Source of the DNA: Bacteriovoracaceae bacterium
GTDB lineage: Bacteria > Bdellovibrionota > Bacteriovoracia > Bacteriovoracales > Bacteriovoracaceae
NCBI GenBank assembly: GCA_016784965.1
Contig: JADHTQ010000001.1
Coordinates: forward strand, 124,001-188,000
Length of the DNA: 64,000 bases
Direction of reading: 5' to 3'
In this document: positions 8,507 through 39,331 of the stretch, piece after piece
Layout: every line of letters starts with the position of its first letter
Position numbering within the stretch: position 1 is the stretch's first letter
Position numbers and translations under genes: made by a program
The notes under the pieces: model-generated
The model's database searches: none
The model's input: only the letters and a program-made list of their open reading frames with translations
Told to the model about the DNA's origin: nothing

Positions 8507-8531
8507 ATTTACCCCCTGAATTTAAATAAAC

Positions 8532-8552
8532 TAAGGTTACACCACAACCTTA
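8532..8552. repeat. Perfect inverted repeat upstream of the tiny lipoprotein gene
   Basis: TAAGGTT (8532-8538) and AACCTTA (8546-8552) flank a seven-base spacer, 26 bases upstream of the lipoprotein start codon. It has no T tract, so an operator or a 5' leader hairpin is more likely than a terminator. Confidence 0.4.
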
Positions 8553-8623
8553 TTAGGCTCTATTAAACCCTGTAGCTAAAATGCTCGTCAATATGGTACT
8601 TTTTTCCGGGGGGAATTAATAAA

Positions 8624-8956: not shown

Positions 8957-8966
8957 AAACACCCCC

Positions 8967-9914: not shown

Positions 9915-9918
9915 GTGG

Positions 9919-10767: not shown

Positions 10768-10794
10768 CTTTTTTCTCCTTACATAAATTGTTGG

Positions 10795-11382
10795 CTACAA
10801 TCCACCCTTGAGATTCATTAACACAAACTTACTGACCATTTTTAACGTTTCAAAGACACCCTGTCCGTCTATTGCTACTGATTCAAACTCAGGAGCATCC
10901 CATTTATTTAGTTGTTTTTTTAACTCTGAAACAGAGGTTATATTGGGTAGGTCTCTTTTGTTCCATTGCATGACAAATGGCAACTTATCGATTGTGTGCC
11001 CTAAATTTAAAAGGTTTTTCTCTAGATCATTTAGGCTTTCAATATTTTCATCCATTCTCTCAACTTGAGAATCGGCAACAAAAATTACACCATCTACGCC
11101 TTTTAAGATTAACCTACGACTTGCTTCATAAAATACCTGTCCAGGGACAGTATAAAGGTGAAACCTCGTTTTAAAACCTCGTATTACACCGAGGTCTAAA
11201 GGCAAAAAATCAAAAAACAGAGTCCGCTCATTTTCGGTATTTAAAGAGATGATTTTCCCTTTTGAGTCGCTAGTTGTTTTGTGATAAATATATTGAATAT
11301 TGGTAGTTTTCCCCCCAAGACCTGGGCCATAATACACAATCTTGCAATTTATTTCTTTCGTTCGATAGTTAACAAAAGACAT
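10795..11382 (-). CDS. mglA: MglA-type polarity GTPase
   Basis: 195 residues. The P-loop GPGLGGKTTN (19-28) is the MglA form. Other motifs are TVPGQVFYEASRRLIL (switch II region), GVIFVADSQ and QWNKRDLP (guanine specificity). MglA is a small Ras-like GTPase that sets the leading pole in Myxococcus gliding and the invasive pole in Bdellovibrio (established knowledge). The gene just upstream, 13 bases away, encodes a roadblock-like protein, the fold of the MglA partner MglB. The two sit between recR and mtnP on the same strand. Confidence 0.95.
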   Translation of the reverse strand: MSFVNYRTKEINCKIVYYGPGLGGKTTNIQYIYHKTTSDSKGKIISLNTENERTLFFDFLPLDLGVIRGFKTRFHLYTVPGQVFYEASRRLILKGVDGVIFVADSQVERMDENIESLNDLEKNLLNLGHTIDKLPFVMQWNKRDLPNITSVSELKKQLNKWDAPEFESVAIDGQGVFETLKMVSKFVLMNLKGGL

Positions 11383-11395
11383 CTTCTATCTTCCT

Positions 11396-11890
11396 TCAAA
11401 ATGAAAACATGTTATCCATTTCAGCATCTGTAATATCGTTAAAAAGATACTCTGTTTTGTTATTATTTTCTTGTTTTGTTACACAAAATTCATTGCTAGC
11501 ATACTCGCTAAGTTTGTTAGTCAATGTTCTAAGTCCAGATTTTAGTAAGCCTGGATTAATTTCCTTATAAAAAATCGTACCAAAAAAGAATTCTTGGTCC
11601 AAGATTTTCATTGGTAGTATATAAACACCTTTAGAGGAAGTATCAAAGCTTAATCTGAAAAATTCATCCGTTTTTGCTTGCGGTATGAATGAGGTTAAGG
11701 CCGAAGCTGCCTGCCACACTCCTCCAATTAATGCTCCAATAGACATATTATTTAATTCATCCAAAGCATTTGGGCCATGAGCGTATATCGGGATTCCATC
11801 TCTTCGACAAAAGAAAATGTTATAGTTTTCTAAGCCATAGTTTGAAACATTTTCATCCATAAATTTTTTTACACAGTCTGCAAAATCCAT
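11396..11890 (-). CDS. Roadblock/LC7-like protein, candidate MglA partner
   Basis: 164 residues from ATG 11890 (a TTG at 11902 is also possible). The pattern NIFFCRRDGIPIYAHGPN, then ALIGGVWQAASAL, then a strand YILPMKILDQEFFFGTIFY, is what a roadblock/LC7 fold shows: two strands with a Gly turn, a long helix, three more strands. The adjacent gene is mglA. In Myxococcus the roadblock protein MglB is the GTPase activator of MglA. It is divergent from MglB itself, so the assignment is an inference from fold pattern and position. Confidence 0.6.
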   Translation of the reverse strand: MDFADCVKKFMDENVSNYGLENYNIFFCRRDGIPIYAHGPNALDELNNMSIGALIGGVWQAASALTSFIPQAKTDEFFRLSFDTSSKGVYILPMKILDQEFFFGTIFYKEINPGLLKSGLRTLTNKLSEYASNEFCVTKQENNNKTEYLFNDITDAEMDNMFSF

Positions 11891-11908
11891 TTTTATTTCC
11901 AAAATATC

Positions 11909-12520
11909 CTATATTCTTTTTTTGTTTTCTAATGCTTTATTTATAGTCATTGAATCTAAATACTCTAAACTTCCACCCATGGGAATACCAAATCCAATAC
12001 GTGAAACTTCCACCTGCTCTTTACCATTTTCCTCTAATCTCTGTTTTATGTAAGAGCAAGTCGCATCTCCTTCCACAGATGGGTTTAACCCCAAAATAAC
12101 TTCATTAATATTTTCTTCAAATACCCTACTTATGAATTTTTCAATTTTTAACTCGTCAGGGCCTATACCCAATAACGGATTTAATACTCCACCTAAAATG
12201 TGGTATTTGCCATCATATTGTCCACTTTTTTCAACTGCAAGGCAATCAATTATCGTTTCAACCACACAAATGACATTGCTACTACTACGTACTGGTGACG
12301 AGCAGACATCACACAATAGCTTATTGTCATCAGTAAACATTCCGCACTTGGTACATTTTTGCAAATATTGTAAGTTTTTGAAGCTATCTCCAAAACGCTC
12401 TAAGTCTTTGCCACTTAGCTTAGACAAGTATAAAGCATGGCGTAGTGCCGTTTTATTACCTATACCTGGCAATTTACTAATATTTAAAACAGCGTCTTGT
12501 AGTTTTTCAGGTAAATCCAA
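11909..12520 (-). CDS. recR: Recombination protein RecR
   Basis: 203 residues, usual length. Helix-hairpin-helix LPGIGNKTA near the N terminus, a four-Cys zinc finger CTKCGMFTDDNKLLCDVC, then a TOPRIM domain beginning CVVETIIDCLAVE, and a C-terminal Walker B-like GIPMGGSLEYLD. RecR works with RecO and RecF in RecA loading at gaps. Gene order dnaX-ybaB-recR is conserved in many bacteria, which supports the call; mglA and its partner are appended downstream. Confidence 0.96.
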   Translation of the reverse strand: MDLPEKLQDAVLNISKLPGIGNKTALRHALYLSKLSGKDLERFGDSFKNLQYLQKCTKCGMFTDDNKLLCDVCSSPVRSSSNVICVVETIIDCLAVEKSGQYDGKYHILGGVLNPLLGIGPDELKIEKFISRVFEENINEVILGLNPSVEGDATCSYIKQRLEENGKEQVEVSRIGFGIPMGGSLEYLDSMTINKALENKKRI

Positions 12521-12530
12521 ATTACACCAT

Positions 12531-12845
12531 TTAAAAAAGACCGGGGATGTTCACGCCACCGGTAACTTTTGACATAGAGTTTGATACCATATCTTGAGAT
12601 TCTTTTACTGCTTGATTAATAGCAGTTTTAATCAAATCTTCAAGCATCTCAACATCGGATGGATCAACACATTCTGGATTAAGTTTGAAATCAATAATTT
12701 CTTGTTTGCCATTAATCTTTATTTTTACCATCCCACCACCAGCAGAAGTGTCTAACTCTCTTACTTCTAATTCTTTTTGAAGGGCGGCAAGTTTAGTTTG
12801 CATTTGTTGCGCTTGCTTTAAAAGGTTATTCATATTCTTTGCCAT
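12531..12845 (-). CDS. YbaB/EbfC family nucleoid-associated protein
   Basis: 104 residues with the family pattern: N-terminal helix NMNNLLKQAQQMQTKLAALQ, the strand segment GGGMVKIKINGKQEIIDFKLN, then MLEDLIKTAINQAVKESQ, ending GGVNIPGLF. These small dimers bind DNA and coat the nucleoid. It sits in the conserved place between dnaX and recR, 10 bases from recR. Confidence 0.95.
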   Translation of the reverse strand: MAKNMNNLLKQAQQMQTKLAALQKELEVRELDTSAGGGMVKIKINGKQEIIDFKLNPECVDPSDVEMLEDLIKTAINQAVKESQDMVSNSMSKVTGGVNIPGLF

Positions 12846-12869
12846 CGCTACATCCTATTTAAAGTTTAT

Positions 12870-14573
12870 CTATGTTTCTTCTATTATTACTTTATTAATT
12901 TTTGCATTAAAGAGGCCTTCAGCCTCTTTGATAACTGGATGATTTAGAAAGTCCTCTTTTTTTTGTTTCAAAACTTGCTCACGCTTTGTTTCTTTGATTT
13001 CTACAATTGATTTAAAATTGGACTCTTTTTTTGTTTTCTCATCCACAGCAACTAAATTAAAGATTATGTTAGAACTATCTATTTTAAAATAATCAGACAT
13101 GTGAGAGATAATTTTACTTTTAACCTCTACATCCTGGAGATAGTCAAAAAAGATACTACTGCTTTTATCAAAACCGACTGAAATTTTTAAACTATTTTCT
13201 GAATATTGCAGCGAGGAAAGAATATTGCCTTGTTCAAGGTTTGATGCCGATGCGGGAGCACATTCAAATAAATATTCGATAAACGTTTCCCAGTTTCTAT
13301 GTTGGACATCAACTTTTTTTTCTTCTGCCTTATTTTCTCCGACCTTGTCTTCTACCCTTCCTACAAGCTGTTCCGGCTTATTTTGTGCTTCTTTTTTTAC
13401 TTCTTGGGTCCCTAAGGTGATTTTGGGCTCCTCGGGTTCTTGCCTATTTTGAACTGGAGCACTGTTGGTTGTTTTTGGTTGTAGTTGAAAAAATGATTTT
13501 CTAAGACATATTTTTTGCAGGACAATCTCTGCAACTTTTTCAGGATCTATCGAAGTTAGTACCCAAGTAATATCTTTTGCTAAAGCTTCATAAACCCAAA
13601 ACAATTCAGATTGTGAAATATCATTTATAGCCGCCACAAGTTTACTTTGCACTCCAAAGTGCCCTGGCAAATTATCATAGTTTTCAATTATTTCAAAAAG
13701 GTCATCAAGAATCGATTTTAAAATATTCTTGGTACTTACATTGTCGTTTAGCAGTTGCCTGTAAAGCTTGGAGCAACTTTGAACATCTCCTGTAAGCAGT
13801 GAGTACACAATCTTCCTAACGGATGATATTCGAGGTATTCCTAAAGACACGACAACCGTATCCTCATCGATAAAATTATTTTCAGAAAAACTTAACACCT
13901 GATCAAACAAAGATAATGTGTCTCTTACTGAGCCGTTACCTTGCAAACACATTTGCTCTATTAACTTATCATCATCAAATGCAATCTTCTCAACTTCACT
14001 GATTTTTTTTACATGTTCTATCAAACTACTAAGGTTCACATTTCTAAAATCAAATCGCTGACATCTAGACAATACGGTCGCAAGCAATTTATGAGGTTCG
14101 GTGGTAGCAAAAATAAAGATTACATGTGCAGGCGGCGCCTCTAGCGTTTTTAAAAGCGCATTAAAGGCATTCACTGTAACCATGTGTACTTCATCGATAA
14201 TGTAGATCTTATACTTGCCGGAAGTAGGAAGAAAGTGAACGTTATTTATCAACTCTCTGATGTTATCAACGCCGTTATTTGAAGCGCCATCTATTTCGAT
14301 TACATTTAAAGATGAGCCTGACTCAAAATCTTGGCAAGAATTGCATTTACCACATGGATTGGCATCATTGTCTAAGGCAGCACACCGCAGAGATTTGGCA
14401 AATATTCTTGCAACGGTGGTTTTACCAACCCCTCTAGTCCCAGAAAATATATAGGCATGACCAAGTTTATTGCGCAAAATCGCATTTTGAAGAGAGCTAA
14501 CAACATGATTTTGACCTATAACATCTTGAAATTTTTGGGGACGCCATTTCCTAGCAAGTACCTGGTAATTCAT
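12870..14573 (-). CDS. dnaX: DNA polymerase III subunits gamma/tau
   Basis: 567 residues from ATG 14573 (MNYQVLARKWRPQ, the standard N terminus; AGAAGG six bases upstream). The longer frame from 14615 would run into the SRP RNA and is rejected. Clamp-loader ATPase: Walker A FSGTRGVGKTT, zinc knuckle CAALDNDANPCGKCNSC, Walker B IYIIDEVHMV, sensor ATTEPHKL. After about residue 390 comes a charged linker and a short C-terminal domain, shorter than in E. coli tau. No clear slippery site for a gamma product was seen. Confidence 0.95.
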   Translation of the reverse strand: MNYQVLARKWRPQKFQDVIGQNHVVSSLQNAILRNKLGHAYIFSGTRGVGKTTVARIFAKSLRCAALDNDANPCGKCNSCQDFESGSSLNVIEIDGASNNGVDNIRELINNVHFLPTSGKYKIYIIDEVHMVTVNAFNALLKTLEAPPAHVIFIFATTEPHKLLATVLSRCQRFDFRNVNLSSLIEHVKKISEVEKIAFDDDKLIEQMCLQGNGSVRDTLSLFDQVLSFSENNFIDEDTVVVSLGIPRISSVRKIVYSLLTGDVQSCSKLYRQLLNDNVSTKNILKSILDDLFEIIENYDNLPGHFGVQSKLVAAINDISQSELFWVYEALAKDITWVLTSIDPEKVAEIVLQKICLRKSFFQLQPKTTNSAPVQNRQEPEEPKITLGTQEVKKEAQNKPEQLVGRVEDKVGENKAEEKKVDVQHRNWETFIEYLFECAPASASNLEQGNILSSLQYSENSLKISVGFDKSSSIFFDYLQDVEVKSKIISHMSDYFKIDSSNIIFNLVAVDEKTKKESNFKSIVEIKETKREQVLKQKKEDFLNHPVIKEAEGLFNAKINKVIIEET

Positions 14574-18994: not shown

Positions 18995-20269
18995 TTAAAA
19001 TGTAAACAATTTTTTAAGTTTCTGTTCGAGTACTTCATATGAAAAGTGCTGTTTACCCAATTTGTAATTATATTCGGCAATCTCTTTTTGTAGTTTTTTG
19101 TTATGGATAACTTTATCTATTTGAGTTAGCGATTTATCAGTTAATACATTGTCTTCTAACATAACCGCTTTAAAACCCTTGCTCCCAATATCGGGCCAGT
19201 AAACAGGTTTGTAATTATTTACAAAAATTGGTTTTTTGGCCAAAATACATTCAACAAATGCATTTCCAAAGCCCTCATATGTACTAAAATACGTACATGC
19301 TGTTGCGTTGGCATAGGCATCAGACAATGAGTAAATTTTCTTTCCATGATATGATTTTCCTCTTTCACTGAGAATAATATGCCCTCCAAATATCACCTGT
19401 TTTCTCATTTTTCTTTTTTTAATATGATCTATTAGTTCTTTATAGTAGCCCTTTCTTTCATCATCTGCTGCAGTTCCTGTAATAATAAGCTTCAGCCTTT
19501 TATCATCCAAGCGATGAATCATCTCAATTGCTGTCTCTATACCCTTTCTCTTTACAATTCTGGTAATTTGAAAAATTGGAATATCATTTTTACCAACACC
19601 AAGTCGTTCCAATAGGTCTTTGTTATAATCATTTTTTCTAGCATAGGGCTTTGAAAAATCCATAACGTTTGGAACAATTGTTGATTTGATCCCCAGTTTC
19701 TTCTTTAAAATTTTCTTTGAATATTCGTTGATAACTGCATGTTTAACATTTGGAAGATTTAGAGGAAATGTCTCCTTGATAATATTATCAATTTCTTTAT
19801 GTGGAGTTTTATACCTATCTCCTCTTTCCCAGTGAAAATCATGGTCATGAGTTACTACGGGAATTTTGATAATTTCTACTGCCTTTTTTATCCCCATACC
19901 CATGGAAAGATGGCACGGTAGGGCCGATGCGTTTTCTGATAGTAGGGCATCAATTTTGTTTCGCGAGATCCAATAAAAAATCTCTTTGGCTATATGATCA
20001 GAAGTTTGCTCTAAATGGGCAATTAAATTTCTTGGATTTTCCTTGGGGAAAAAGAAGGCCCTATTTTGTTCCCACTCACAGTTGGGAGAAAAAAATGACA
20101 GATGTGTTAACAGAGTTCGATATTTTTCTGGTATTATGTTGTTTTTAAAACTACCTGCCATTATATACACTTTATGACCCATCTTAACTAAAATTTTTAT
20201 CCATTTTTCTGTCTCTAGGGCCACACCATCAACGTCACCGATTCGCCCGATAATAATACCAATATTCAT
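18995..20269 (-). CDS. GT4-type glycosyltransferase
   Basis: 424 residues in a GT-B fold. The N-terminal Rossmann half starts MNIGIIIGRIGDVDGVALETEKW; PVVTHDHDFHWERGDRY and PNVMDF mark the domain junction. The C-terminal half has FQITRIVKRKGIETAIEMI, LIITGTAADD, and the donor-site FSTYEGFGNAFVECILAKKP (E-x7-E of retaining GT4 enzymes). Its first four bases overlap the end of the TIR gene, so it is translationally coupled to it. Donor and acceptor unknown. No other polysaccharide gene is adjacent, which sets it apart from usual glycan clusters and links it to the TIR/RyR operon. Confidence 0.88.
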   Translation of the reverse strand: MNIGIIIGRIGDVDGVALETEKWIKILVKMGHKVYIMAGSFKNNIIPEKYRTLLTHLSFFSPNCEWEQNRAFFFPKENPRNLIAHLEQTSDHIAKEIFYWISRNKIDALLSENASALPCHLSMGMGIKKAVEIIKIPVVTHDHDFHWERGDRYKTPHKEIDNIIKETFPLNLPNVKHAVINEYSKKILKKKLGIKSTIVPNVMDFSKPYARKNDYNKDLLERLGVGKNDIPIFQITRIVKRKGIETAIEMIHRLDDKRLKLIITGTAADDERKGYYKELIDHIKKRKMRKQVIFGGHIILSERGKSYHGKKIYSLSDAYANATACTYFSTYEGFGNAFVECILAKKPIFVNNYKPVYWPDIGSKGFKAVMLEDNVLTDKSLTQIDKVIHNKKLQKEIAEYNYKLGKQHFSYEVLEQKLKKLFTF

Positions 20270-21822
20270 AACGATCCTCCGTAATACTTTTTGAAACTTT
20301 CCAATATAGCTTCTTCCAGCTTAATAATAATATCTAAGTTTATGTTATTAACTGATGAGTAAATATCTGACTTTGCAAAACCTATTTCCAATACTACTTC
20401 GGGAATTGGGGTCAACTTAATTTTTTCAAAATTCTTTTTTTCACTAAAGATTTCTTTAACGTCTTTGCTTAGTTGTCGTTCCAAAAGCCACACCATTTTT
20501 TGAGCTCTTTGACCAGAGTAGCTTATTTTATAATATGGCACTGAAGATCTTTCAACTTTAACCTTAAAAAGAATGGTCGCACCCATTTGCTTTGCCCTAT
20601 TTAAGCGGTCTTGTTGTAAAATAGGCTCATTTAAAGATGTTATTAACTTTAATGATGGACGATGATAACCTTTTAACAACCCTCGCTCCAACATAAGTAG
20701 TAGCTCAAACGCCAAAAGGTCTACCTTGGTTCCTCCTGAGCTATATATAATATCAAATAGAAAAAAATCTCTTAACTTAATATTTCTAGCATTATTGCGA
20801 TTTTTTTTAAATAGACGATAGTTTAGGACTGAATCTATTTTTGAAAGTTGATTATATTCAGGGAAAGTTATCTGCTTCTTATTCATTGCATTTAATAGCT
20901 TTTCTCGCTCTTCATAATAGGTCATAGCACGATTGGTTTTATTAAACAGTAGTCCACTACGTAGTAAAATATTTTCTTTCAACTTTTCTAATTCATAAAG
21001 TGAATTATTTGCTAAATTGCCACCATATGTTGTCGAAGTCATCTGTGGCGGAAGTGCTACTCTGGGTTTAGCCAAAGGTTTAATTACTGGTTTTGGAATA
21101 ATTTTGGCCACTGGTTTTGGAGTAATTTTGGCCACTGGTTTTGCCGGCTTGCTTTCAACATGTTTGACAGCTATGACAGCCGGCTCATCACTCACATTCG
21201 ATGTAAAAAAAGTATATCCCGCCACAATTACAACACATAATATGACAAATACTGCAGCAGCAATGCCATACTTAAGTTGTTTAGACCTAAAAGTTTTAGA
21301 GAATGTTTTTGCTTTCTTTTTGTTTTTGGCCTCAAGTTTTTTAAGCTCTAATTTACTTAATTTAAATGGACGAATTATCGTATTATCACTCACGTCATCT
21401 GAGGATTTGGTTTCTGCTTTTTGTTGTAATACTGTCTTTGCAATGGAAATTAATTCCTGTATATGGTCTTCTAAATTACCAGAATAGGCATTAAGCCAAT
21501 GTGTATTGCATAGATAATACTCCATGGCAGCAGATGGAATAGTTTCATCTATCCTAAATGGTATAATTGTAATCCTGGCATTAACCGCCCGATCAATTTC
21601 TTTTTGTACTTGAACTGATTTATTCGAATTAGCAGAAAAAATAAGTAGCATTAACTTTGAATGGTTTATAGCATCGAGTAGAGATTTAGCGTAGATCTCT
21701 CCTGGTACTATGTCCCGAGGTGCGATCCAACATTTCAAACCTGCACTTTCAAGTTCATTGCATACCTTTTGGGCAAGGCTTACTTCTGCCGATGAATGGC
21801 TGATGAACACAAGATGTTTCAT
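20266..21822 (-). CDS. TIR domain membrane protein with long C-terminal domain
   Basis: 518 residues. A TIR domain (1-130) has VFISHSSAE, CWIAPRDIVPGE, LMLLIFSANSNKS and QVQKEIDRAV; E75 aligns with the catalytic Glu of NAD-cleaving TIR domains. One membrane helix (about 186-206) follows, then a Pro/Lys/Val-rich repeat (220-260) built from tandem PKPVAKI units, and a C-terminal domain of about 250 residues that should lie outside the inner membrane and has no family I recognise. It sits between the RyR/cyclase-like gene (10 bases upstream) and the glycosyltransferase gene (4-base overlap). A role in immunity or signalling is inference. Confidence 0.85.
   Translation of the reverse strand: MKHLVFISHSSAEVSLAQKVCNELESAGLKCWIAPRDIVPGEIYAKSLLDAINHSKLMLLIFSANSNKSVQVQKEIDRAVNARITIIPFRIDETIPSAAMEYYLCNTHWLNAYSGNLEDHIQELISIAKTVLQQKAETKSSDDVSDNTIIRPFKLSKLELKKLEAKNKKKAKTFSKTFRSKQLKYGIAAAVFVILCVVIVAGYTFFTSNVSDEPAVIAVKHVESKPAKPVAKITPKPVAKIIPKPVIKPLAKPRVALPPQMTSTTYGGNLANNSLYELEKLKENILLRSGLLFNKTNRAMTYYEEREKLLNAMNKKQITFPEYNQLSKIDSVLNYRLFKKNRNNARNIKLRDFFLFDIIYSSGGTKVDLLAFELLLMLERGLLKGYHRPSLKLITSLNEPILQQDRLNRAKQMGATILFKVKVERSSVPYYKISYSGQRAQKMVWLLERQLSKDVKEIFSEKKNFEKIKLTPIPEVVLEIGFAKSDIYSSVNNINLDIIIKLEEAILESFKKYYGGSL
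21087..21144. repeat. 24-base tandem repeat, about 2.4 copies, within the TIR gene
   Basis: Units 21087-21110 and 21111-21134 differ at one or two bases and a third partial copy follows. They encode the Pro-Lys-Pro-Val-Ala-Lys linker just after the membrane helix, so they form a spacer of adjustable length. Confidence 0.8.
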
Positions 21823-21832
21823 GGTATCTTAA

Positions 21833-23743
21833 CTATGTCCTCCTCAAGCAATACATAGGAAATGAACCAAATTTTTTAGCAAGAGATATTTTTCCAACAT
21901 AATCACAGCGAAAGGAGTTTATATCCATTAACACTGATAATGCTGCAAATTCTCTTCCGACAAAGATTTCTCCTGGAGGCGTAATAGGCTCAATCCTTGC
22001 TGCTGTACAAATGTTGCTACCGCTGTAGCTGGTTCTCCCTGTTAGTTTATTGGTTGTTTTTATAACCGGCCCGGCATGCAATGCTATTCGTAGTTTCATC
22101 GGGATGTGAAGTCCTAGATCACTCCAATTTATATTGTTGATCCGCTCAGAAAGTGATAGTGCAAAAAGCCCTGCATCTTCAATTTTATGAAACACTAAAA
22201 ATAAAGCATCCCCCCAAGTATTTTTTGATGCAAGCTCTAGATTAAATTCATCTAATAACTCTATTACAACACTCGACAATTTATCTTCAAAAACAACAAT
22301 CTCATTATCCTTGAGCTTGGCATAGTTTGATGCATCAGCAAACAAAATGGCCTTAAGATCATAATTGGCCGTTACCGATTGTTTTAAGGAGTCACATGAC
22401 CACTCTTTGTTCTTTGTGACGATAGATACATCATTATTATCGATTTTAAAAATAACTAGCTCAGTATCTAACTGCTGGGACTTTATAGTAGCAATCCCAT
22501 AATTGACAAATTTATAGTATTCATAATCAACATCAAAATTTGATGATTCCATTGTTTTAATCGCTACCACTTGAGAAAAATCTTTTAAGTTACTTTCAAA
22601 ATCATCTATAAGACTTTTCTCATTATTGAAATTCAGATAACAAATGAGATCTCTATCCATTTTATCAAGTACTTTACCCAAGCGTTTAAATATCTTGGCA
22701 TCAACCTTATCCTTGGATAGTTTACCTTCAAAAATTACAACTACTGGTACTTTAATACTATCAAGTAATTTTGCTTTATCTTTACCTGAAATTTTCGAGA
22801 TTTTAAGTATTTGTTTTAAATTACTAACTGTAGTCGCCAAGTCACCAATGCGCTTGCCCGAGTTGCAAAAAGCTTGATGGTACCAATTTATTGCATCTTC
22901 AAACTGATTCATGACCAAAGATGCCTCTCCCATTGTGGCGTAAGTCCAATATAAATTATCCTTTGTTTCACCTTTTAAGGACTCTTCACATTTTTTAAAA
23001 ACTTGGCCAGCAACTTCAAATGATGCTTTTTTTTCACCAAGATGAATTAGTGTCCAAGCAACGTTAATACCTGTCCAAGTTCCTCTTTTTTTCTCGTAGG
23101 CCATGAGATAATATTTGTGAGCTTTCTTGAGATGCTCATCGCTTGGGTTGCTACTATTTTGTGACTTCTTCCAGAGTTCTTTGTGGGTTTTGGCCAGTAA
23201 GCCAAGTGTCCTTTCGCTATCGTCACCTAATTCAAATAAAGACGTAAGATAATCATTTGCCCTCTCGGTCATTCCTAGTCGGGTTAGTGCCATGGCCTTT
23301 AATTGTCGGGGACGGGTAGCCTCGGGAAAATTGCGACTGATTTCATCAAATAAATCATGGGCCATAAGTGGCTTTCCAGTTCGCAACAATTCTTCTCCGG
23401 TAGCCAGAAATTCATCAAACTTTTTATAGCTTCTTATATCATGACCTTTACTATCACTTTTTGGAGGAGTTATGTCATACCCTAATGCTTTTATTAACCT
23501 GATGGCACCCATAGCACTCATACGATCATATTCTTGTTCGTCATTTGATAGTTGTTCATATGGCACCAGGCAAGGATGCTTTTTCTTAGGGTCATCACGT
23601 TTGCTGCCAAAAGACCATCCTTCACTCATACGATTTATGGACCAAATTTCATGGGTATTTTTGGCGAGCAATTCTGTTAACTCTTCTAAGTAATATTCAA
23701 GTTGAATATTTGAAACATCGATTGGTTTTGGTTTGTAGGACAT
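21833..23743 (-). CDS. RyR domain - TPR - nucleotide-cyclase-like multidomain protein
   Basis: 636 residues, no signal or membrane helix. An RyR domain (about 4-92) has HEIWSINRMSEGWSFG, LVPYEQLSNDEQEYDR and IKALGYDI. A TPR-like helical region runs 105-310. A degenerate alpha/beta domain (about 330-450, starting VPVVVIFEGKL) follows. A class III cyclase-like domain (464-630) keeps both metal Asp (D470, D512) and the transition-state Arg (R583), but S572 replaces the base-reading Asp and C579 the transition-state Asn. It may have an altered product or be a binding domain. RyR domains in bacteria are predicted nucleotide sensors in conflict systems (established predictions). First gene of an operon with TIR and glycosyltransferase genes. 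Confidence 0.82.
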   Translation of the reverse strand: MSYKPKPIDVSNIQLEYYLEELTELLAKNTHEIWSINRMSEGWSFGSKRDDPKKKHPCLVPYEQLSNDEQEYDRMSAMGAIRLIKALGYDITPPKSDSKGHDIRSYKKFDEFLATGEELLRTGKPLMAHDLFDEISRNFPEATRPRQLKAMALTRLGMTERANDYLTSLFELGDDSERTLGLLAKTHKELWKKSQNSSNPSDEHLKKAHKYYLMAYEKKRGTWTGINVAWTLIHLGEKKASFEVAGQVFKKCEESLKGETKDNLYWTYATMGEASLVMNQFEDAINWYHQAFCNSGKRIGDLATTVSNLKQILKISKISGKDKAKLLDSIKVPVVVIFEGKLSKDKVDAKIFKRLGKVLDKMDRDLICYLNFNNEKSLIDDFESNLKDFSQVVAIKTMESSNFDVDYEYYKFVNYGIATIKSQQLDTELVIFKIDNNDVSIVTKNKEWSCDSLKQSVTANYDLKAILFADASNYAKLKDNEIVVFEDKLSSVVIELLDEFNLELASKNTWGDALFLVFHKIEDAGLFALSLSERINNINWSDLGLHIPMKLRIALHAGPVIKTTNKLTGRTSYSGSNICTAARIEPITPPGEIFVGREFAALSVLMDINSFRCDYVGKISLAKKFGSFPMYCLRRT

Positions 23744-23886
23744 ATTATCATAATAACCATACTAAGAAAAAAATCAAAAAAATCTTAAATTGCAGTAATT
23801 TGAGCACCTTTTTCCTATCTGATAATTTTGCCCCATGATACCATTGTATGAAGAAAATGTTTGGCACTTAAGTGGAGTAAATACAT
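23744..23886. promoter_or_regulatory. Divergent promoter region of the RyR/TIR/GT and channel/vWA operons
   Basis: A 143-base AT-rich gap separates two start codons facing away from each other. Rightward, TTGAGC and GATAAT lie 15 bases apart near 23797-23823; leftward, a TATTAT-like element is next to the RyR start. GTGGAG precedes the channel gene ATG. The shared gap makes joint control of the two operons plausible. Confidence 0.4.
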
Positions 23887-24633
23887 ATGTCAAGAGCAGG
23901 AAATATTCTCAGATCATTTATGCTTGCTACTTTTATAGTTGGGGTAAGCTACATCGGTCTCACTGCAACCGGCACCTCAGAGACCATGGCCTTTTTAAGA
24001 AGAATTTGTATTCTTCTTGGTGGAAATATTACTGGTGGTGGCTACATTCAATTTTTTACATATTTTGCTTTTTTTTGGTCACTATTTGATATTTTAAGTA
24101 AACTCGAAAAAATTAGAAAAGAGCAAAGGGCGTTCAAGTATAAGCTCTTACCAACTGATGAAAGACATGTACTTATGCCTAAAGACTTAATGCAGATCAA
24201 ACTAAAAATTGATGAATATGAAAAAAAGGGAAATTATCTACTAAATGCCGTAATTAAAAAGGCATGTATTAAATTTCGTACTTCAAATTCCATTTCTGAG
24301 ATAATTAATATCATTAATATTCAAACAGACATTAATAAAGAAAAATCTGAAAGTGGACAATCAAATATTCGTTATCTCACCTGGGCTATCCCTTCCATCG
24401 GATTTATTGGTACAGTGCTGGGCATTTCACAAGCGCTACAAGTGGCAAACAGTGGTGACATGAATAAAATAACAGCTACACTTGGTGTGGCATTTGACAC
24501 CACCTTAGTTGCTCTGTGCTTGAGTATTATTGTAATGTGGTTTTTTCATAGGCTACAAGAAGAAACTGATACACTACACGCAAAAATTAAAGAATATGTC
24601 ATTGAACATTTAGTTAATAGAATTGAAGTTTAA
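23887..24633 (+). CDS. MotA/TolQ/ExbB-family proton channel protein
   Basis: 248 residues. Two N-terminal membrane helices (about 10-28 and 50-70), a cytoplasmic loop of about 100 residues, then the diagnostic C-terminal helix pair: YLTWAIPSIGFIGTVLGISQAL and TLGVAFDTTLVALCLSIIVMWFF, equivalent to TolQ/ExbB helices with the GTV-GI and Thr-Thr pore positions. Such proteins form pentamers around a dimeric MotB/ExbD/TolR-like stem and convert ion flow into rotation. The partner is the vWA gene seven bases downstream. Divergent from the RyR/TIR operon. Confidence 0.85.
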   Translation: MSRAGNILRSFMLATFIVGVSYIGLTATGTSETMAFLRRICILLGGNITGGGYIQFFTYFAFFWSLFDILSKLEKIRKEQRAFKYKLLPTDERHVLMPKDLMQIKLKIDEYEKKGNYLLNAVIKKACIKFRTSNSISEIINIINIQTDINKEKSESGQSNIRYLTWAIPSIGFIGTVLGISQALQVANSGDMNKITATLGVAFDTTLVALCLSIIVMWFFHRLQEETDTLHAKIKEYVIEHLVNRIEV

Positions 24634-24639
24634 AAATAG

Positions 24640-25572
24640 ATGTCGAAGATAAAAAGAGAAAGTAATGTATTCAGTATCGCGTTTTTAGACCTGCTATCAG
24701 GTGCCCTTGGAGCTGTTATAATTTTATATATTGCTGTACCCAAGGCATCGATTAAAACAGAACACTCAGACAAAAGCAAAATAGAAATCATCATAAAAGA
24801 AAAAAAAGAGGTCACCAGGCAATTAAATAAATGTAGAAGTAAAAATACGACCTATGAAGAACTTGTGAAAAAAAACCATGATGATTCCGAAAAACAAATT
24901 ACAGCACTAAAAGAGAAAATTTCAGCACTAAAAAAAGAAAAAATTAAAACACCTCCCCCTCCTCCACCTCCTCCTCCAAAGATTAGAAAGAAAGCAAAAG
25001 ACAGTGGGTTTGCTGCCCAACCACTGGATGTGGGATTTCAGTTTAAGGGCAAAAAGATTGTTTTTGTAATTGATGTATCAGGTAGTATGATGCAAGAAGA
25101 TCGCATCGGACAAGTTAAAGCTGGTCTTAAAATGCTCATTACCTCCATGTCAAAAGAATTTATGGTTAATGTCGTTTCATTTCCAAATCGCAATAAGACT
25201 CCTTTTAAAAATCTGTGGCATGCCCCTAGATTTACGACCGCTGATAACAAAAAAGAGGTCTATAAGTTTTTAAATGGTCTATCAGCTTATGGAACAACTC
25301 CAACACGAGAAGCTCTAAAACATGTCTTTGAAAAGTACTCCGATATTACAGACATCGTTTTGCTATCTGATGGCGCACCGACCACTTTTAATTCGCAAAA
25401 GCGCGATGACATCTATAAACTTCTAAGCGATTTAGCAAGCCAAAATGTGTTTGATATTCAGGTCAATACAATTGGAGTCGGTTCCGATTTTTTAAAAGAT
25501 ATAAATAATTTGAAATACATTTTCCTATCAAAGCTAGCAGCAGACCATAATGGCTTTTTTGTAGGTTTTTGA
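24640..25572 (+). CDS. MotB/ExbD-like stem protein carrying a von Willebrand A domain
   Basis: 310 residues. A single N-terminal helix, FLDLLSGALGAVIILYI (15-31), has an Asp (D17) at the position of the ion-carrying Asp of MotB/ExbD. A coiled-coil stretch (50-103), a run of nine prolines (105-113), then a vWA domain (about 135-305) with the MIDAS motif DVSGS (145-149) and a later TTPTRE Thr and LLSDGAP Asp, so the metal site looks complete. A peptidoglycan-binding OmpA or ExbD domain is absent; the vWA domain takes its place. Function is unknown. The gene is coupled to the channel gene. Confidence 0.85.
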   Translation: MSKIKRESNVFSIAFLDLLSGALGAVIILYIAVPKASIKTEHSDKSKIEIIIKEKKEVTRQLNKCRSKNTTYEELVKKNHDDSEKQITALKEKISALKKEKIKTPPPPPPPPPKIRKKAKDSGFAAQPLDVGFQFKGKKIVFVIDVSGSMMQEDRIGQVKAGLKMLITSMSKEFMVNVVSFPNRNKTPFKNLWHAPRFTTADNKKEVYKFLNGLSAYGTTPTREALKHVFEKYSDITDIVLLSDGAPTTFNSQKRDDIYKLLSDLASQNVFDIQVNTIGVGSDFLKDINNLKYIFLSKLAADHNGFFVGF

Positions 25573-27732: not shown

Positions 27733-28278
27733 ATGAAACTACTTATAGCTAGTGTTACACTGCTTGTCTCTTTTTTTTGTTTTAGTCAGCAAAGAGGTCA
27801 AGATAGTGAACGTCAAATGCCTCGCAATGGCTTAAGGCAGAACAATAGTAACAGGCAAAATCAACAAAGAGCTTTTAGAGGTAGAGGTCAAAGAAGACAG
27901 CAGAGAGATTTTAGAAGAGGGGGGCAACAACCAAGACGGGGGTTTGACGAAAGCAGAGGACAAGCTAATCGGAAAAACCCCGAAACGATGCAACTTATGA
28001 AAGAGGTTCGGGAGTTAGAAAATAAATCTAAACAACTGGCCCAAAATTACAAAGATAGTAACTCTATTGAAGATAAGAAAAAAATTTCTGAGTCACTTCG
28101 GAGCAATTTACAAGAAATATTTGAAAAAAAATTGAGCTTTGGTGAAAAAAAGCTAGATGATGTAGCCAAAAAGCTAGAGCAACTAAAAGATTCCCTAGCT
28201 AGTAGAAAAAAGAATGCTCAGCAAATAATTAAGCAACGTTTGGACGAATTACTTACAAGTGACGGCTATGCACAGTAA
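27733..28278 (+). CDS. Secreted Arg/Gln-rich protein with C-terminal coiled coil
   Basis: 181 residues. Signal peptide (MKLLIASVTLLVSFFCFS), then about 70 residues of low complexity dominated by Arg, Gln, Gly and Asn (GRGQRRQQRDFRRGGQQ), then a helical, coiled-coil-prone region (90-175). A highly basic exported segment could bind nucleic acid or anionic polymers such as lipopolysaccharide; this is inference. Its end overlaps the start of the adenylate cyclase gene, so translation is coupled. Confidence 0.65.
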   Translation: MKLLIASVTLLVSFFCFSQQRGQDSERQMPRNGLRQNNSNRQNQQRAFRGRGQRRQQRDFRRGGQQPRRGFDESRGQANRKNPETMQLMKEVRELENKSKQLAQNYKDSNSIEDKKKISESLRSNLQEIFEKKLSFGEKKLDDVAKKLEQLKDSLASRKKNAQQIIKQRLDELLTSDGYAQ

Positions 28279-29128
28279 AACTTTAACAATACTATTTGCT
28301 GATATTCAAGGTTATACAAAAAGAACATCGAGGCAAAGCAGAGAGCAAAATCAAAATTTCATAACTGAAATCAACGATTTTATCAAAAAGTATACAAAAG
28401 AATTTTCAGGCATATTCGTAAAAAATTTGGGAGATGGATTTCTTCTCACCTTCGAATCACCAACAAATGCAGTAAATTGTGGCAAGAGAATCCAAAAAGA
28501 AATTAAAACTAGAAATGCGAATATTTTAAAAAAAGAAAATTATGTACAGTTTAGAATTGGAATAAGTACTGGTGAAGTTAGTCTTGATGAAAATGGAGAT
28601 GTCTTTGGTGATGCAGTCAACATCGCATCAAGAATAGAAACTTTTGCTGAACCCAATGAAGTATTTATTTCAGAAAGTACTTATTTGGCCATGAACAAAG
28701 TTGAGGTGTACACCCAAGATTTGGGACCTCAGCAGTTCAAAAATGTTCTAACAGAGGTACGGGTATATAAAGTCCTCACTGAGCATGAACAAAGCAGCAA
28801 TGGAAAAATGCAAGAAAAGATTAAAGCAAAAGGGTTGCATGTTCTACTGCTAGTCTTTTTTTCCTTGATTGTAATTGGAGCACCTATCTCATTTTATTAC
28901 TTTTTTAAATCTAAACCTCAGTCAAAAGCAGATCCTGTGCACAAATGGAATTCGAAAATATTCAGGCAAATTCTTCAGCTTGAGCGAAAACTTGACCGAT
29001 TTAAAGAAGCCGAACGACATCTGTTTGGTCCAAGAAATGTACAATTATCCTGGGATGATTCGCTTTGGGAAAAATCTACAAGGCAAATAGAAAATGACAT
29101 TCGCGTGTTGGAGTCAATTCTAGAATAG
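28268..29128 (+). CDS. Membrane-tethered class III adenylate cyclase
   Basis: 286 residues from ATG 28268 (a GTG three codons earlier is possible). N-terminal class III cyclase domain (5-170): metal Asp D12 (FADIQGY) and D56 (KNLGDGF), base-reading K52 and D111 (GDVFGD), transition-state N118 and R122 (NIASR). The Lys/Asp pair points to ATP rather than GTP. One membrane helix (about 190-212) follows and about 70 residues with coiled-coil character lie beyond it, probably periplasmic. This is reversed from the common sensor-then-cyclase order. A stand-alone cyclic-nucleotide-binding protein is encoded at 35586-36059. Confidence 0.88.
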   Translation: MHSKTLTILFADIQGYTKRTSRQSREQNQNFITEINDFIKKYTKEFSGIFVKNLGDGFLLTFESPTNAVNCGKRIQKEIKTRNANILKKENYVQFRIGISTGEVSLDENGDVFGDAVNIASRIETFAEPNEVFISESTYLAMNKVEVYTQDLGPQQFKNVLTEVRVYKVLTEHEQSSNGKMQEKIKAKGLHVLLLVFFSLIVIGAPISFYYFFKSKPQSKADPVHKWNSKIFRQILQLERKLDRFKEAERHLFGPRNVQLSWDDSLWEKSTRQIENDIRVLESILE

Positions 29129-32535: not shown

Positions 32536-32560
32536 TTAATAACACATATTGGAGGTAGTA

Positions 32561-33610
<1,050 letters not shown>

Positions 33611-35585: not shown

Positions 35586-36059
35586 TTAGGCTGCCTCTTT
35601 ATATTTTTGAAGCTTATCACTCAAATCAGAGATGACTTGATTGGAGTTTTTTAGGCGTTTTGTAATAAGTCTTGTCACATTTAAGACCATCAGAGAAAAA
35701 ACATCGGGGTTTTTTTTATAAAAAGAATAGAAGTTTGCATATGTCATCACTAATATATCGGTATTTTTAACCGCAATTATATTTGCAGTCCTCTTGGTTT
35801 CATTAATTAAGACCAACTCTCCAAAGAAATCTCCCTTAGAAATTGTCGTGATGATTTGCGATGTTCCGGACTTATCAATTGTAATATTTGCAAGACCTGA
35901 AAGCACAACACAAATCTCGGTTCCTGTATCACCTTGTTTGATGATATAATCACCTGGCTTATATGAAGCTACATGACATGACTTAATAATTTCACTAATC
36001 TCGTCGTCATATAGTTCATAAAATAGTGGGCAGCCTTTAACAAGGTCAGTAGCAGGCAT
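35586..36059 (-). CDS. Stand-alone cyclic-nucleotide-binding domain protein
   Basis: 157 residues: one CRP-type cNMP-binding domain with nothing else. The phosphate-binding cassette is GDFFGELVLINETKRTAN, keeping the ribose-binding Glu and the phosphate-binding Arg, and YKPGDYIIKQGD with IVVLSGLANI-like strands completes the barrel. No DNA-binding or kinase domain, so the output must come through a partner. It is the last gene of a three-gene unit, five bases after the MotA-like gene. A role in gating that motor by cAMP or cGMP is inference. Confidence 0.88.
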   Translation of the reverse strand: MPATDLVKGCPLFYELYDDEISEIIKSCHVASYKPGDYIIKQGDTGTEICVVLSGLANITIDKSGTSQIITTISKGDFFGELVLINETKRTANIIAVKNTDILVMTYANFYSFYKKNPDVFSLMVLNVTRLITKRLKNSNQVISDLSDKLQKYKEAA

Positions 36060-36064
36060 AAGTT

Positions 36065-36994
36065 TTAAGCTCCCTTGGCCTTTTTCACCGAAGATTCATT
36101 AATTTTCTTAGTAGACAAAGTTCTAATCTTTTTTACTTCTTTTAATAAAACTGGCAGAATATCATTGATTCTTCTTTCCATGCTTTGCTCGCCATGAATA
36201 GATAACCATAGTAATTCAAAGCAATTAGATACCATCTTAAATGTTTTCTTTCGAAGCCCATTTACAGGTGCTAGAGTGTTTAAAAAAGTCATAATAAGTG
36301 AAAATAAAATACCAGCAATAGATGTTTTCATTGCATAGGTTACACTCATTACAAATTTTGTTAATAGTCCTCCTGCAGAATCTAGATTTTGAAAGTCCAT
36401 CTGGGCAATAGCCGGCAATGCCATACTGATGCCAATAAAGGTTCCAAAAATTCCCATAACAACAAAAACAGTTGGCAATACATCAATAAGCCTTGATATT
36501 GGACCAATGGGGAAAACACCCATTAATTTAGTCCACTCTTCATCACGCTCCAGTATCCTATTTGTGAGGTTTGTATAGTTGGGTGGAAACTTACTCTTAA
36601 AAGCCCCCATTTCTGACTTTATGGAATTTAGAAAACTCTTATCTCCTTTTACGTAATCTCGTAGGGTAACTATATTGTTTGTTCCCATAACACTTGATAA
36701 TTTTTTCATTTTTTTCGAAGTACCCCTACGCACATGTCTGGTAGGTAGTTTATCCAAGACCTGCTCAAGTATGTCCGACATAAAGCCTTCCACATCCTCA
36801 ACATCTACCTCTGAATTTTTATTTCCATCGACAGATAAAATTTTCTCCAGCTCAGTGGTAAAGGAAGCAAAGTATGCATCTACCTTTTTGCTTGAGCGAT
36901 ATGAGGCAAATCTAAAAACAAGTCCTACTACTAACAAAACACTCATAATCTCAATAAGGTAGCTAGAACAAATAGTAAATACTAAGTCAATCAC
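36065..36994 (-). CDS. MotA/TolQ/ExbB-family motor protein
   Basis: 309 residues, GTG start with GGAG six bases before. One N-terminal helix (about 10-30), a soluble region of some 140 residues, then the paired helices VLPTVFVVMGIFGTFIGISMAL and TYAMKTSIAGILFSLIMTFL typical of MotA/TolQ/ExbB (Gly-Thr-hydrophobic-Gly and Lys-Thr-Ser positions), and a C-terminal cytoplasmic tail. Its partner, the MotB-like gene, lies three bases upstream. Similar in pairing to ZorA of Zorya, but without the long tail of ZorA. Confidence 0.87.
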   Translation of the reverse strand: MIDLVFTICSSYLIEIMSVLLVVGLVFRFASYRSSKKVDAYFASFTTELEKILSVDGNKNSEVDVEDVEGFMSDILEQVLDKLPTRHVRRGTSKKMKKLSSVMGTNNIVTLRDYVKGDKSFLNSIKSEMGAFKSKFPPNYTNLTNRILERDEEWTKLMGVFPIGPISRLIDVLPTVFVVMGIFGTFIGISMALPAIAQMDFQNLDSAGGLLTKFVMSVTYAMKTSIAGILFSLIMTFLNTLAPVNGLRKKTFKMVSNCFELLWLSIHGEQSMERRINDILPVLLKEVKKIRTLSTKKINESSVKKAKGA

Positions 36995-36997
36995 GGT

Positions 36998-39331
36998 TTA
37001 CTCCTTTTGGAGAACATCTAATTGTTTTAAAACATCAGGATTATCTTTTAAAGTAAAACTAATTTCAACACGTCTGGATAGCTTACAATCGAAATTCCCA
37101 CAGTAAAAGGTATCACTCTCTTTAAATACTTCAGAAGCAGGTGTACGATCAATAGGTCTTGAGAAACTTTTACCTATAGCTGAGACCTTTTTTCTTAGTT
37201 CAGTTCTGTGTGGAAAATGACCAAAGTTTTCTGCAAATATATATTTTACAATTGAGTTGGCCCTTCTCATGCTTAAATCAAGATTGTAGTTGTAAGCATC
37301 TTGGTGATTTTTATCAAATGGATCAACATACTTGCCTTGGTGTCTAGGACTTGCGTGCCCAATAATGTTAATATTGGTAATCTGATCCCGGATACCTTGA
37401 TCTTTTAAAAGTTCATTGGCATATAGTGGAATCAGCTCTTTAAGGCCGACTTTTGCAAACTTTGTAAGTTTGGCACTATCTCTATCAAATAAAAAGGCAT
37501 CGTCCATTTGTAAAATCACATTCCCAGTTACTGGATCTACTTTCGCTTTTAAATTTGCCTTCTCTAGTGCCTTAGCAATTCTACTTCCTATTTGAGACCT
37601 TAAGTTTGCTTTAACACTTGCAATCCCTCTAGTAACATCACCTAAGTATTTTTCAATCTTTTTATTTTTACTCTTTAGCTTTTTGCTATCTTTTTTACAG
37701 GCATTGAATTTTTTAACGATTACATTGTTACGCTTCACTAGAGTTTTATTTTTGCCTTTAAGATCACCCAAGATACTCGCTAGCTTATTTTTACTTTTAA
37801 TTTTACCTCTAAGGTCCATTTGCTCTTTTTGTAATCCAGCAATGAAACCTTCTTTACCTTCAATTTTATCTTTCAATGTTGCCATAGCATCTTTTAGATC
37901 TTTATTGTTCCTATTTAAGTAGGAAAGTTCACTGTTTAACCCATTGATTTTATTGGCCAAATCATTTTTCTTATCTGACATAGATGCAATTGTTGATTTA
38001 TATCCTTTTAAGCGATCTTTTAACCCCTTCATTCTGCCGCTTAAGTTTTTAACCTTTGCGTTTAGATTATCCTTCTCATTTGAAAGTGATCCAACTTTTG
38101 TTTCTAGACCCTGTACTTTTTCCATAAGTGCAGTTTTTTCATTTTTAGCATTACGAATATCATTTTTGAATCTCCCAATCTTACCTGTAAGTTTGGCATG
38201 ATCCATTTGTGATTTACTCAACCTCTCTTTTAACCCATCGCTAGAATCTTTAAAACGTTTGATCTCCTCTGTCTGCTTGGCAATAACATTAAGTAGAGAT
38301 TCGCTCTTTCTTTCTATGTCTTTGTTTTTTGCTACATGATCACTTATGGTTTTTTGTAGTTTTTCGATCACAGTCTGTTTTTGCCGTTTTGCATTTTCAA
38401 CATCTTTAATCTGTGTTTTTACTTTTAAAAAATCCTCATCGCGTCTAGCAACTTTTTTTGCAAATTCTTCTTGTTGACTTTTCAACTTATTTTGATGCTC
38501 AACAACTTTATTTCTGTGATCCTCATTTGTCCTTTTAAGTTTTTCTTCCAGCGCCTTAGTCTTTATAGTGAGAGCATTTTTAATTTGTGAAATTTTATTA
38601 AGTGTCTTTATTTTTTGCTCAACCTCTTCAACTTTCGCAGCAAGAGCATCTGTTACTTTTTTAAGCTCCAAGTTTTTTAACTCTTCAAGCTCTTTTATCT
38701 TCTCTTGATTCAACTTTTTTAACTTATTCAAAGCAATAGAGTTTGCCGTGATAGTTTTTAAATGTTCTCTATTTGCATTTTTTGTAGCAAGCTCTTTTGC
38801 TGCAATTGTTTGTTTATAAATCTCCTCTAACCTCTTGGCTTTTGCATTTTTCTCAATTTCTAATTGCTCATGAACTTGTTTAATATCCTCAATCTCTAAT
38901 TCTTTGGTGGCAATAGTGTGTTCATGTTCCTTGTTCTTTTGTTTTAATATAGCAAGCTGTGCTTCCTTTACCCCTTGATCTTTTAAAATATGGTGGATGT
39001 TATTTTTCTGATTATGTAGTTTTTCTGAAAGTGATTTTAAATCTTCCAACTTTGATGTAATAGTCTCGCTAACTTTTTCAATTTCATTTATGGATTTTTT
39101 TAACTTCTTTTTTACCAATTCATTTTTCTTGACTACCTTTTTTGGAGTTTGCCCTACGAGCATTTTCTTCTGCTCTTCTACTCTTTTTACAGAAGAGGCC
39201 ATTTTAACGCCTGACTGCAACAGAGCAAAGATAAACATCACAAGAAATATAATGGCCATCGTAGTGAACATATCACTGTACGAAGTCCATACACTCCCAC
39301 TGTCTTTTGGTTCATCACTATCATCATTCAT
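36998..39331 (-). CDS. MotB/OmpA-like stator protein with very long coiled coil
   Basis: 777 residues from ATG 39331, with TGGTGA upstream. The N terminus WTSYSDMFTTMAIIFLVMF aligns with MotB around its ion-binding Asp; here D20. After the helix (18-42) comes about 550 residues of nearly unbroken Lys/Glu/Leu-rich coiled coil (about 70-620), then an OmpA-like peptidoglycan-binding domain (about 640-760) with NIIGHASPR, LDLSMRRANSIV and the SRRVEI end. Both anchoring and ion-carrying features are intact. MotB proteins normally have only about 60 residues between helix and OmpA domain. First gene of the unit with the MotA-like and cNMP-binding genes. Confidence 0.87.
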   Translation of the reverse strand: MNDDSDEPKDSGSVWTSYSDMFTTMAIIFLVMFIFALLQSGVKMASSVKRVEEQKKMLVGQTPKKVVKKNELVKKKLKKSINEIEKVSETITSKLEDLKSLSEKLHNQKNNIHHILKDQGVKEAQLAILKQKNKEHEHTIATKELEIEDIKQVHEQLEIEKNAKAKRLEEIYKQTIAAKELATKNANREHLKTITANSIALNKLKKLNQEKIKELEELKNLELKKVTDALAAKVEEVEQKIKTLNKISQIKNALTIKTKALEEKLKRTNEDHRNKVVEHQNKLKSQQEEFAKKVARRDEDFLKVKTQIKDVENAKRQKQTVIEKLQKTISDHVAKNKDIERKSESLLNVIAKQTEEIKRFKDSSDGLKERLSKSQMDHAKLTGKIGRFKNDIRNAKNEKTALMEKVQGLETKVGSLSNEKDNLNAKVKNLSGRMKGLKDRLKGYKSTIASMSDKKNDLANKINGLNSELSYLNRNNKDLKDAMATLKDKIEGKEGFIAGLQKEQMDLRGKIKSKNKLASILGDLKGKNKTLVKRNNVIVKKFNACKKDSKKLKSKNKKIEKYLGDVTRGIASVKANLRSQIGSRIAKALEKANLKAKVDPVTGNVILQMDDAFLFDRDSAKLTKFAKVGLKELIPLYANELLKDQGIRDQITNINIIGHASPRHQGKYVDPFDKNHQDAYNYNLDLSMRRANSIVKYIFAENFGHFPHRTELRKKVSAIGKSFSRPIDRTPASEVFKESDTFYCGNFDCKLSRRVEISFTLKDNPDVLKQLDVLQKE

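Follow-up and report, generated by a model that had tools for sequence, protein, structure and literature searches.

Positions 35,586 to 39,331 of a 64,000-nucleotide (nt) stretch of Bacteriovoracaceae DNA (the window, which belongs to contig 49 in a genome of 4.59 Mb) encode a MotB/ZorB-like protein, a MotA/ZorA-like protein and a stand-alone cyclic-nucleotide-binding (cNMP, for cyclic nucleoside monophosphate) protein, called MotB, MotA and the cNMP protein in the following. The three genes are kept as one unit, and the partnership between the motor and the cNMP protein is evident at the genomic level. The set is not unique to the source genome and constitutes a family of Bdellovibrionota with a sister bearing FHA domains. 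On balance we lean towards a wall-tethered ion motor of the 5:2 superfamily that has its own obligate cyclic-nucleotide-sensing partner, whereby the signal is probably cAMP and the partner probably acts on MotA.

Conservation of the three-gene unit

The genes are arranged in the order motB, motA, cNMP on the minus strand, separated by gaps of 3 and 5 nt, and the open reading frames were confirmed. A second in-frame ATG of motB is located upstream at 39388. The start at 39331 is nevertheless preferred because homologues share the N-terminus that begins there (acidic residues followed by DGSVWTSYSD). An earlier note on this DNA, made from the sequence alone, had described three tightly packed genes. 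They are present at these positions, and a chance arrangement is excluded since the arrangement is conserved in 47 distinct homologous loci.

We refer to the cNMP-type motor as class A (47 distinct motA genes) and to a sister motor as class B (14 loci examined). Class A loci were pooled from a MotA search of 59 relatives (15 close homologues, spread over 13 genomes), from a scan of named genomes and from a phylum search covering 369 Bdellovibrionota genomes. According to the named-genome scan, named relatives of the motor are mostly found in Bacteriovoracaceae and Halobacteriovoraceae, both Bdellovibrionota. One carrier, Bacteriovorax sp. DB6_IX, is in culture, and its record (L082) contains motA and the cNMP gene.

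In 43 of the 47 class A loci the cNMP gene lies directly beside motA at a distance of -37 to +44 nt, 42 times on the same strand and once inverted (L046). Contig ends account for two of the other loci: in L090 the contig stops inside motA, in L091 inside a recognisable cNMP start. In a third, L139, the cNMP orthologue is located at another place in the same genome, G109 (169 bits). Counted over all 47 loci, the conserved neighbours are motB (47), motA (47) and cNMP (43), followed by the next commonest gene with 9. As the other neighbours differ widely and none is common to more than 9 loci, the unit consists of these three genes.

The search from the side of the cNMP protein leads to the same picture. 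Its profile yields 15 matches of 203-246 bits in the 59 relatives, all of them beside the 15 motors, while the next best match reaches 94 bits. Across the phylum, matches above 150 bits occur in 40 genomes, every one with a class A motor. The motor itself was detected in 42 of the 369 genomes, such that the orthologue is present in 40/42 genomes with and 0/327 genomes without it. The two motor genomes lacking a match above 150 bits (G149, G340) have the motor cut by a contig end. The adjacency on which the earlier note had staked its reading beforehand is thus found in related genomes as well. An extra cNMP copy without motor in G080 (L161, 6457-6897) is decayed, with two in-frame stops, and no motor remnant was found within ~6 kb of it.

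Pairwise distances of MotA and the cNMP protein correlate with r = 0.86, a value reached in 0 of 2000 permutations, and those of MotA and the MotB end with r = 0.89. Since shared ancestry explains much of such a correlation, we take it to indicate joint inheritance only.

Architecture of MotB and MotA

MotB is composed of one N-terminal transmembrane (TM) helix, also in its homologues, a long rod and a C-terminal domain (Table 1). Asp20 is found at the very start of the TM helix within W15-T-S-Y-S-D20-M, and SYSD or AYSD is common to the class A homologues with complete N-terminus. The equivalent residue of ZorB, D24, is essential in Zorya (PMC11890865).

The C-terminal domain matches the OmpA family (PF00691) with 28.1 bits at a cut-off of 27.2, and MotB matches the PADLOC profile of ZorB1 with an E value of 6.9e-37. 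A phmmer search of the C-terminus against the PDB gave no match. The AlphaFold2 (AF2) model of the domain (predicted local distance difference test score, pLDDT, 87.8) is closest to the solved structures of ZorB type II (Foldseek E 4.6e-9, Z 19.1) and type I (4.3e-8, Z 17.5), followed by MotS, MotB-like and OmpA-like domains. The peptidoglycan site reads GHAS where GHTD is usual. We considered the missing Asp as an argument against wall binding and rejected it: ZorB II needs H141 and S143 for peptidoglycan binding in vitro (PMC11890865), hence the GHAS site of MotB looks competent.

Between helix and domain, residues ~49 to 598 form a linker of ~550 residues with a single proline (63). Its hydrophobicity has a period of 3.50 with a power of 45, compared to a mean of 15 and a maximum of 23 in 200 shuffles. 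Heptads are strongly marked over ~41-150 and 209-590; over ~153-236 their signal is weak, and a hinge is possible there. The earlier note had claimed an ion-carrying Asp, a peptidoglycan-binding end and about 550 coiled-coil residues between them. The first two are borne out; for the third, linker length and heptad period stand, while the weak stretch makes the number slightly generous.

All complete class A homologues show a linker period of 3.48-3.52, each above its own shuffles. In length, in contrast, the linker ranges almost five-fold from 310 to 1485 residues, corresponding to ~46 to 220 nm if extended (0.1485 nm per residue). The longest rod (L049, 10748-16024) belongs to a MotB homologue of 1758 amino acids (aa) and is richer in glycine. 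We rejected a fixed radial ruler of periplasm depth on account of this range. The rod, whose length varies so widely, probably follows the wall or is folded back on itself. Its periplasmic location is inferred from the homology to ZorB and MotB, from the one TM helix and from the invariant Cys744 and Cys749, which lie five residues apart in the peptidoglycan-binding domain, whereas the rods contain almost no Cys.

MotA gave no Pfam match at E 0.1, MotA_ExbB (PF01618) included; the genome contains ten other PF01618 matches. ZorA profiles, a profile of our own and a structure model were therefore used instead. The matches to the ZorA profiles are weak (E 8e-9; best score 35 at a cut-off of 100), and the MotA-based profile finds solved ZorA chains at E ~0.001. 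The AF2 model (pLDDT 86) has helices of TM length within residues 2-60, 163-197 and 204-241. It aligns to ZorA, ExbB and TolQ with Z 10.4-11.3 over ~200 residues and to PomA with Z 7.3, although Z values of this size can arise by chance for helical proteins. Hence it is the agreement of sequence and structure that counts here. Thr185 and Ser225 are invariant in both motor classes. Together, profiles and model support MotA as a ZorA/ExbB/TolQ-type A subunit of the 5:2 ion-driven motor superfamily that forms its own sequence family. In the MotA tree class A, class B and Zorya form one group each, with moderate support.

MotA and the cNMP protein have a common C-terminus. In both classes the variable tail of MotA closes with K-x-[AG]-[AS] or a similar sequence, as does the cNMP protein, examples in the two proteins being KKAS, KKAA and KKGA. 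An [AG][AS] end is found in 27/47 class A MotA, 13/14 class B MotA and 28/42 cNMP proteins compared to 15/648 background proteins, whereby the sequences counted are related rather than independent, but no alignment is possible for the residues that precede the motif. We rejected the explanation that it is a ribosome-binding site hidden there to serve the next gene: only 3/249 background upstream tandem genes end this way, and the cNMP gene, which carries the motif, is the last of the unit. The transfer-messenger RNA tag of the genome ends with -AMAA. Speculatively, the motif could mark both proteins for degradation or docking.

Table 1. Features of the motor locus (window coordinates)
Feature	Position	Strand	Remarks
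motB/zorB-like gene	36998..39331	-	777 aa; TM helix at the N-terminus, long rod, OmpA/ZorB-like domain for peptidoglycan binding at the C-terminus; in 47/47 class A loci
MotB single TM helix, residues ~17-42	39206..39283	-	from hydropathy; ion-path Asp20 at 39272-39274; SYSD conserved
MotB rod, residues 49-598	37538..39187	-	heptad-patterned coiled coil; weak heptad signal ~153-236
MotB C-terminal peptidoglycan-binding domain, residues 599-777	37001..37537	-	GHAS (H659, S661), R690, R754, invariant Cys744/Cys749; from alignments, AF2, Foldseek
motA/zorA-like gene	36065..36994	-	309 aa, GTG start; pore subunit with conserved Thr185, Thr224/Ser225
MotA C-terminal K-G-A end	36068..36076	-	member of the [AG][AS] C-terminal motif
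cNMP-binding protein gene	35586..36059	-	157 aa, stand-alone, no output domain
cNMP phosphate-binding cassette G76-D-F-F-G-E81-L-V-L-I-N-E-T-K-R90-T-A	35784..35834	-	E81, R90 kept in 43/43
cNMP C-terminal E-A-A end	35589..35597	-	same motif as on MotA

Probable cyclic-nucleotide sensing and the readings weighed

The cNMP protein matches PF00027 with 77.2 bits (cut-off 27.5). With 157 aa and an intact pocket it is the lone domain without output that had been noted before. The GE and the Arg of its phosphate-binding cassette are kept in 43 of 43 adjacent cNMP proteins, preceded by G-[DE] in 40 and by A-E in three. A near-identical cassette (F56GEMALIDNQNRSA69) is present in Bd1971 of Bdellovibrio, which binds cAMP and cGMP with a dissociation constant of ~0.8 uM at the tight site; the same authors point out that cGMP synthesis is not known from Bdellovibrio (PMC6717892). 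Judged by its sequence the protein is probably a cyclic-nucleotide sensor with cAMP as likeliest ligand.

Six class III cyclases were matched in the genome. One of them, an adenylate/guanylate cyclase that probably has a TM helix at its C-terminus, is encoded at 28259-29128 of the window, 6.5 kb from the cNMP gene. Among the 59 relatives, at least one cyclase is found in 13/13 motor genomes. A conserved cyclase neighbour was looked for across the 47 class A loci and not found.

Known 5:2 motors are controlled by plugs, by partner loading or, in flagella, by c-di-GMP receptors, and we know of no 5:2 motor with an obligate receptor of the cAMP type. As the cNMP protein is an obligate partner without output domain, gating of MotA is the simplest reading. 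By analogy to ZorAB, MotAB and TolQR, a MotB dimer would have its TM helices enclosed by five MotA, and ions passing Asp20 would turn MotA relative to MotB, which would be fixed to peptidoglycan through the rod. A periplasmic rod of the extended lengths given above would have to run along the wall or fold back on itself. A class III cyclase would provide the nucleotide, most likely cAMP, and the loaded cNMP protein, working as a gate, brake or clutch, would change its conformation and bind to or let go of MotA at its cytoplasmic face. The motor might do mechanical work on the envelope or surface of these predators, which is the most speculative step. We put forward only tentatively that gating by a cyclic mononucleotide (cAMP) would here be seen for the first time in an ion-driven rotary motor, with a dedicated cNMP protein switching MotA and a periplasmic MotB rod of 46-220 nm transmitting or storing force along the wall.

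Several observations weigh against the motor reading or parts of it. Direct gating by cAMP or cGMP is deduced from the partnership. Cyclases also occur in 20/24 genomes of the same family without motor; their presence is thus weak, permissive evidence only. L092, a divergent homologue from Oligoflexales, has no cNMP gene beside motA, the rest of its genome not having been searched. In the MotA tree class A receives moderate support (54/96). The flanks of the MotB helix, an acidic N-terminus and a Lys/Arg-rich sequence behind the helix, fit the positive-inside rule poorly. Finally, some genomes of the same family lack both motors, which suggests an accessory rather than an essential function.

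Among the alternatives, the one that survives best is a cNMP protein serving as obligate structural or assembly partner, an adaptor of cNMP fold for which the nucleotide signal is no longer needed. The missing output domain and the strict partnership would suit it equally, as would the variation of the residue following the pocket Arg in some relatives (N, H, Y, Q, A). Cassette Glu and Arg, however, persist in all 43 proteins even though orthologues are as little as 34% identical to the window protein; moreover the cassette matches that of a protein which does bind cAMP and cGMP, and cyclases accompany the motor in each of the 13 genomes tested. We regard the adaptor as unlikely.

Less probable again is an anti-phage device akin to Zorya or Pycsar, in which an infection-triggered cyclase signal would let the cNMP protein open the motor such that ion gradients are lost. 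ZorA and ZorB are among the nearest solved structures, the cNMP domain matches Pycsar effector profiles, a class III cyclase is encoded 6.5 kb away, and the occurrence is patchy, with two copies in some genomes. Against this, neither ZorC, ZorD, ZorE nor a cyclase is a conserved neighbour. No match to ZorC, ZorD or ZorE was obtained among the ten window neighbours, as had been supposed, and no further neighbour is conserved in the 47 loci. The same ten genes include no clear defence gene, the cyclase giving only a weak PycC match. A long cytoplasmic tail as in ZorA is absent too: in the model 68 residues of MotA follow the last TM helix. Without this tail and without ZorC, ZorD or ZorE the motor is not Zorya. 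What makes a defence role less likely is the lack of any conserved defence gene next to the unit, together with the housekeeping surroundings of the window copy (rlmH, rsfS and obgE adjoin).

That the cNMP gene is merely co-transcribed and its product acts elsewhere, e.g. on a cyclase or a c-di-GMP enzyme, is very improbable. Orthologues occur only with the motor and stay beside it even when inverted (L046), the one detached copy shares its genome with a motor, and the motor-less copy is decayed.

Hardly probable at all is an inverted MotB with rod and OmpA-like domain in the cytoplasm, a cytoskeleton-like or scaffold protein instead of a wall-anchored axle, for which the charges around the helix (in line with an N-out orientation) and a rod of up to 1485 residues exceeding the periplasm depth could be adduced. 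ExbD, however, is N-in despite an acidic N-terminus. The TM motif is that of ZorB and MotB, which are N-in with the Asp in the pore, the ZorB/OmpA fold keeps the GHxS residues that bind peptidoglycan in ZorB II (PMC11890865), and the invariant Cys pair next to almost Cys-free rods suggests an oxidising compartment.

If the reading as a wall-tethered motor with cyclic-nucleotide-sensing partner is true, cAMP signalling would have a direct hold on the mechanics of the envelope in predators whose life requires attachment to prey, entry and exit, and ZorAB-like motors would exist outside phage defence. The three-gene unit, its FHA-type sister and the nearly five-fold variation in rod length represent a natural series for the role of a motor's periplasmic linker.

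Sister motors, neighbouring genes and known systems

The class B motor is widespread in the phylum (E ~1e-28 to 1e-40), including Bdellovibrio bacteriovorus strain kdesi (L096, motor at 8273-13210). It shares with class A the gene order motB-motA-partner, a coiled-coil MotB (linker of 321-602 residues) and the C-terminal motif of MotA. It differs by its third gene and by GFAS or GFSS, which usually replaces the GHAS of MotB. An adjacent cNMP gene is found in 0/14 loci. Instead, in 10/14 the product of the gene after motA combines an FHA domain with a long helical region behind it (L051, L052, L053, L055 and L095 to L100), leaving L050, L054, L093 and L094 without FHA partner. As an FHA/coiled-coil protein usually takes the cNMP position in the sisters, the third gene slot apparently accommodates a cytoplasmic regulator or transmission partner specific to each class.

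Two further class B-like motors are encoded in the source genome itself, L050 (G000:C90), which is followed by a radical SAM gene and not by FHA, and L051 (G000:C48). Another Bdellovibrionota-type class B motor (L101) is deposited in a record titled as metagenome-assembled genome of Actinomycetota, probably a misbinned contig.

Elsewhere in the window, the region 20266-25572 encodes a TIR-domain protein, a protein with RyR, TPR-S and cyclase-like parts, a second MotA/TolQ-like protein and a membrane-anchored vWA protein. Its content suggests a conflict or defence cassette that has an ion-motor-like pair of its own. At 32549-33610 a protein with N-terminal hydrophobic segment, coiled coil and long Glu-Pro repeat is encoded.

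That no described system has this set, as the earlier note supposed, agrees with our limited literature search: neither a cNMP-paired 5:2 motor nor this MotB architecture is reported in open-access full text, with subscription literature mostly outside the search. A stator survey from 2025 analyses linker length, and the portion of it available mentions no such rods (PMC12505986). A description of the FHA sister motor was not found in the literature either, and it is not named in the accessible part of a transposon sequencing study of B. bacteriovorus.

Compared to Zorya ZorAB (types I and II; PDB 8VVI, 8VVN, 8QYD), the motor has in common a pore subunit of the 5:2 family, the TM Asp, the peptidoglycan-binding fold of ZorB and the GHxS site. 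In contrast to Zorya, the rod belongs to the B subunit and is presumably periplasmic, whereas ZorA has a cytoplasmic tail. Moreover the gene order is B then A, and a dedicated cNMP protein is present in place of ZorC, ZorD and ZorE.

With ExbB-ExbD and TolQ-TolR the MotA model shares a similar arrangement of three TM helices (Z 10.4-10.9) and conserved Thr/Ser residues therein. Other than in those systems, MotA forms a sequence family of its own without Pfam MotA_ExbB match, no TonB or TolA partner is encoded at the locus, and the B subunit ends in an OmpA/ZorB fold behind a long rod rather than in a small periplasmic domain of the ExbD/TolR type.

The ion-path Asp, the OmpA-like peptidoglycan anchor and the logic of a wall-tethered stator resemble flagellar MotAB and PomAB. 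The A subunit of these stators has a torque-generating cytoplasmic domain and four TM helices, as opposed to three helices of TM length in the MotA model, and PomA is far lower in the structural ranking (Z 7.3). They carry a short plug and linker instead of a rod, and no flagellar gene is among the conserved neighbours of the unit.

As to the cNMP protein, Pycsar pairs the effector gene with a PycC cyclase gene, while here the cyclase of the window is 6.5 kb away and none is conserved beside the unit. Bd1971, a cAMP-sensing c-di-GMP phosphodiesterase, has the cNMP domain and the near-identical phosphate-binding cassette, but fused to an EAL enzyme as output, which the protein described here lacks. 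YcgR, a soluble c-di-GMP brake on flagellar MotA, carries a PilZ domain, and its gene is not obligately paired with the motor. The likeness to YcgR is one of function only, that of a soluble second-messenger receptor on the cytoplasmic face of a motor.

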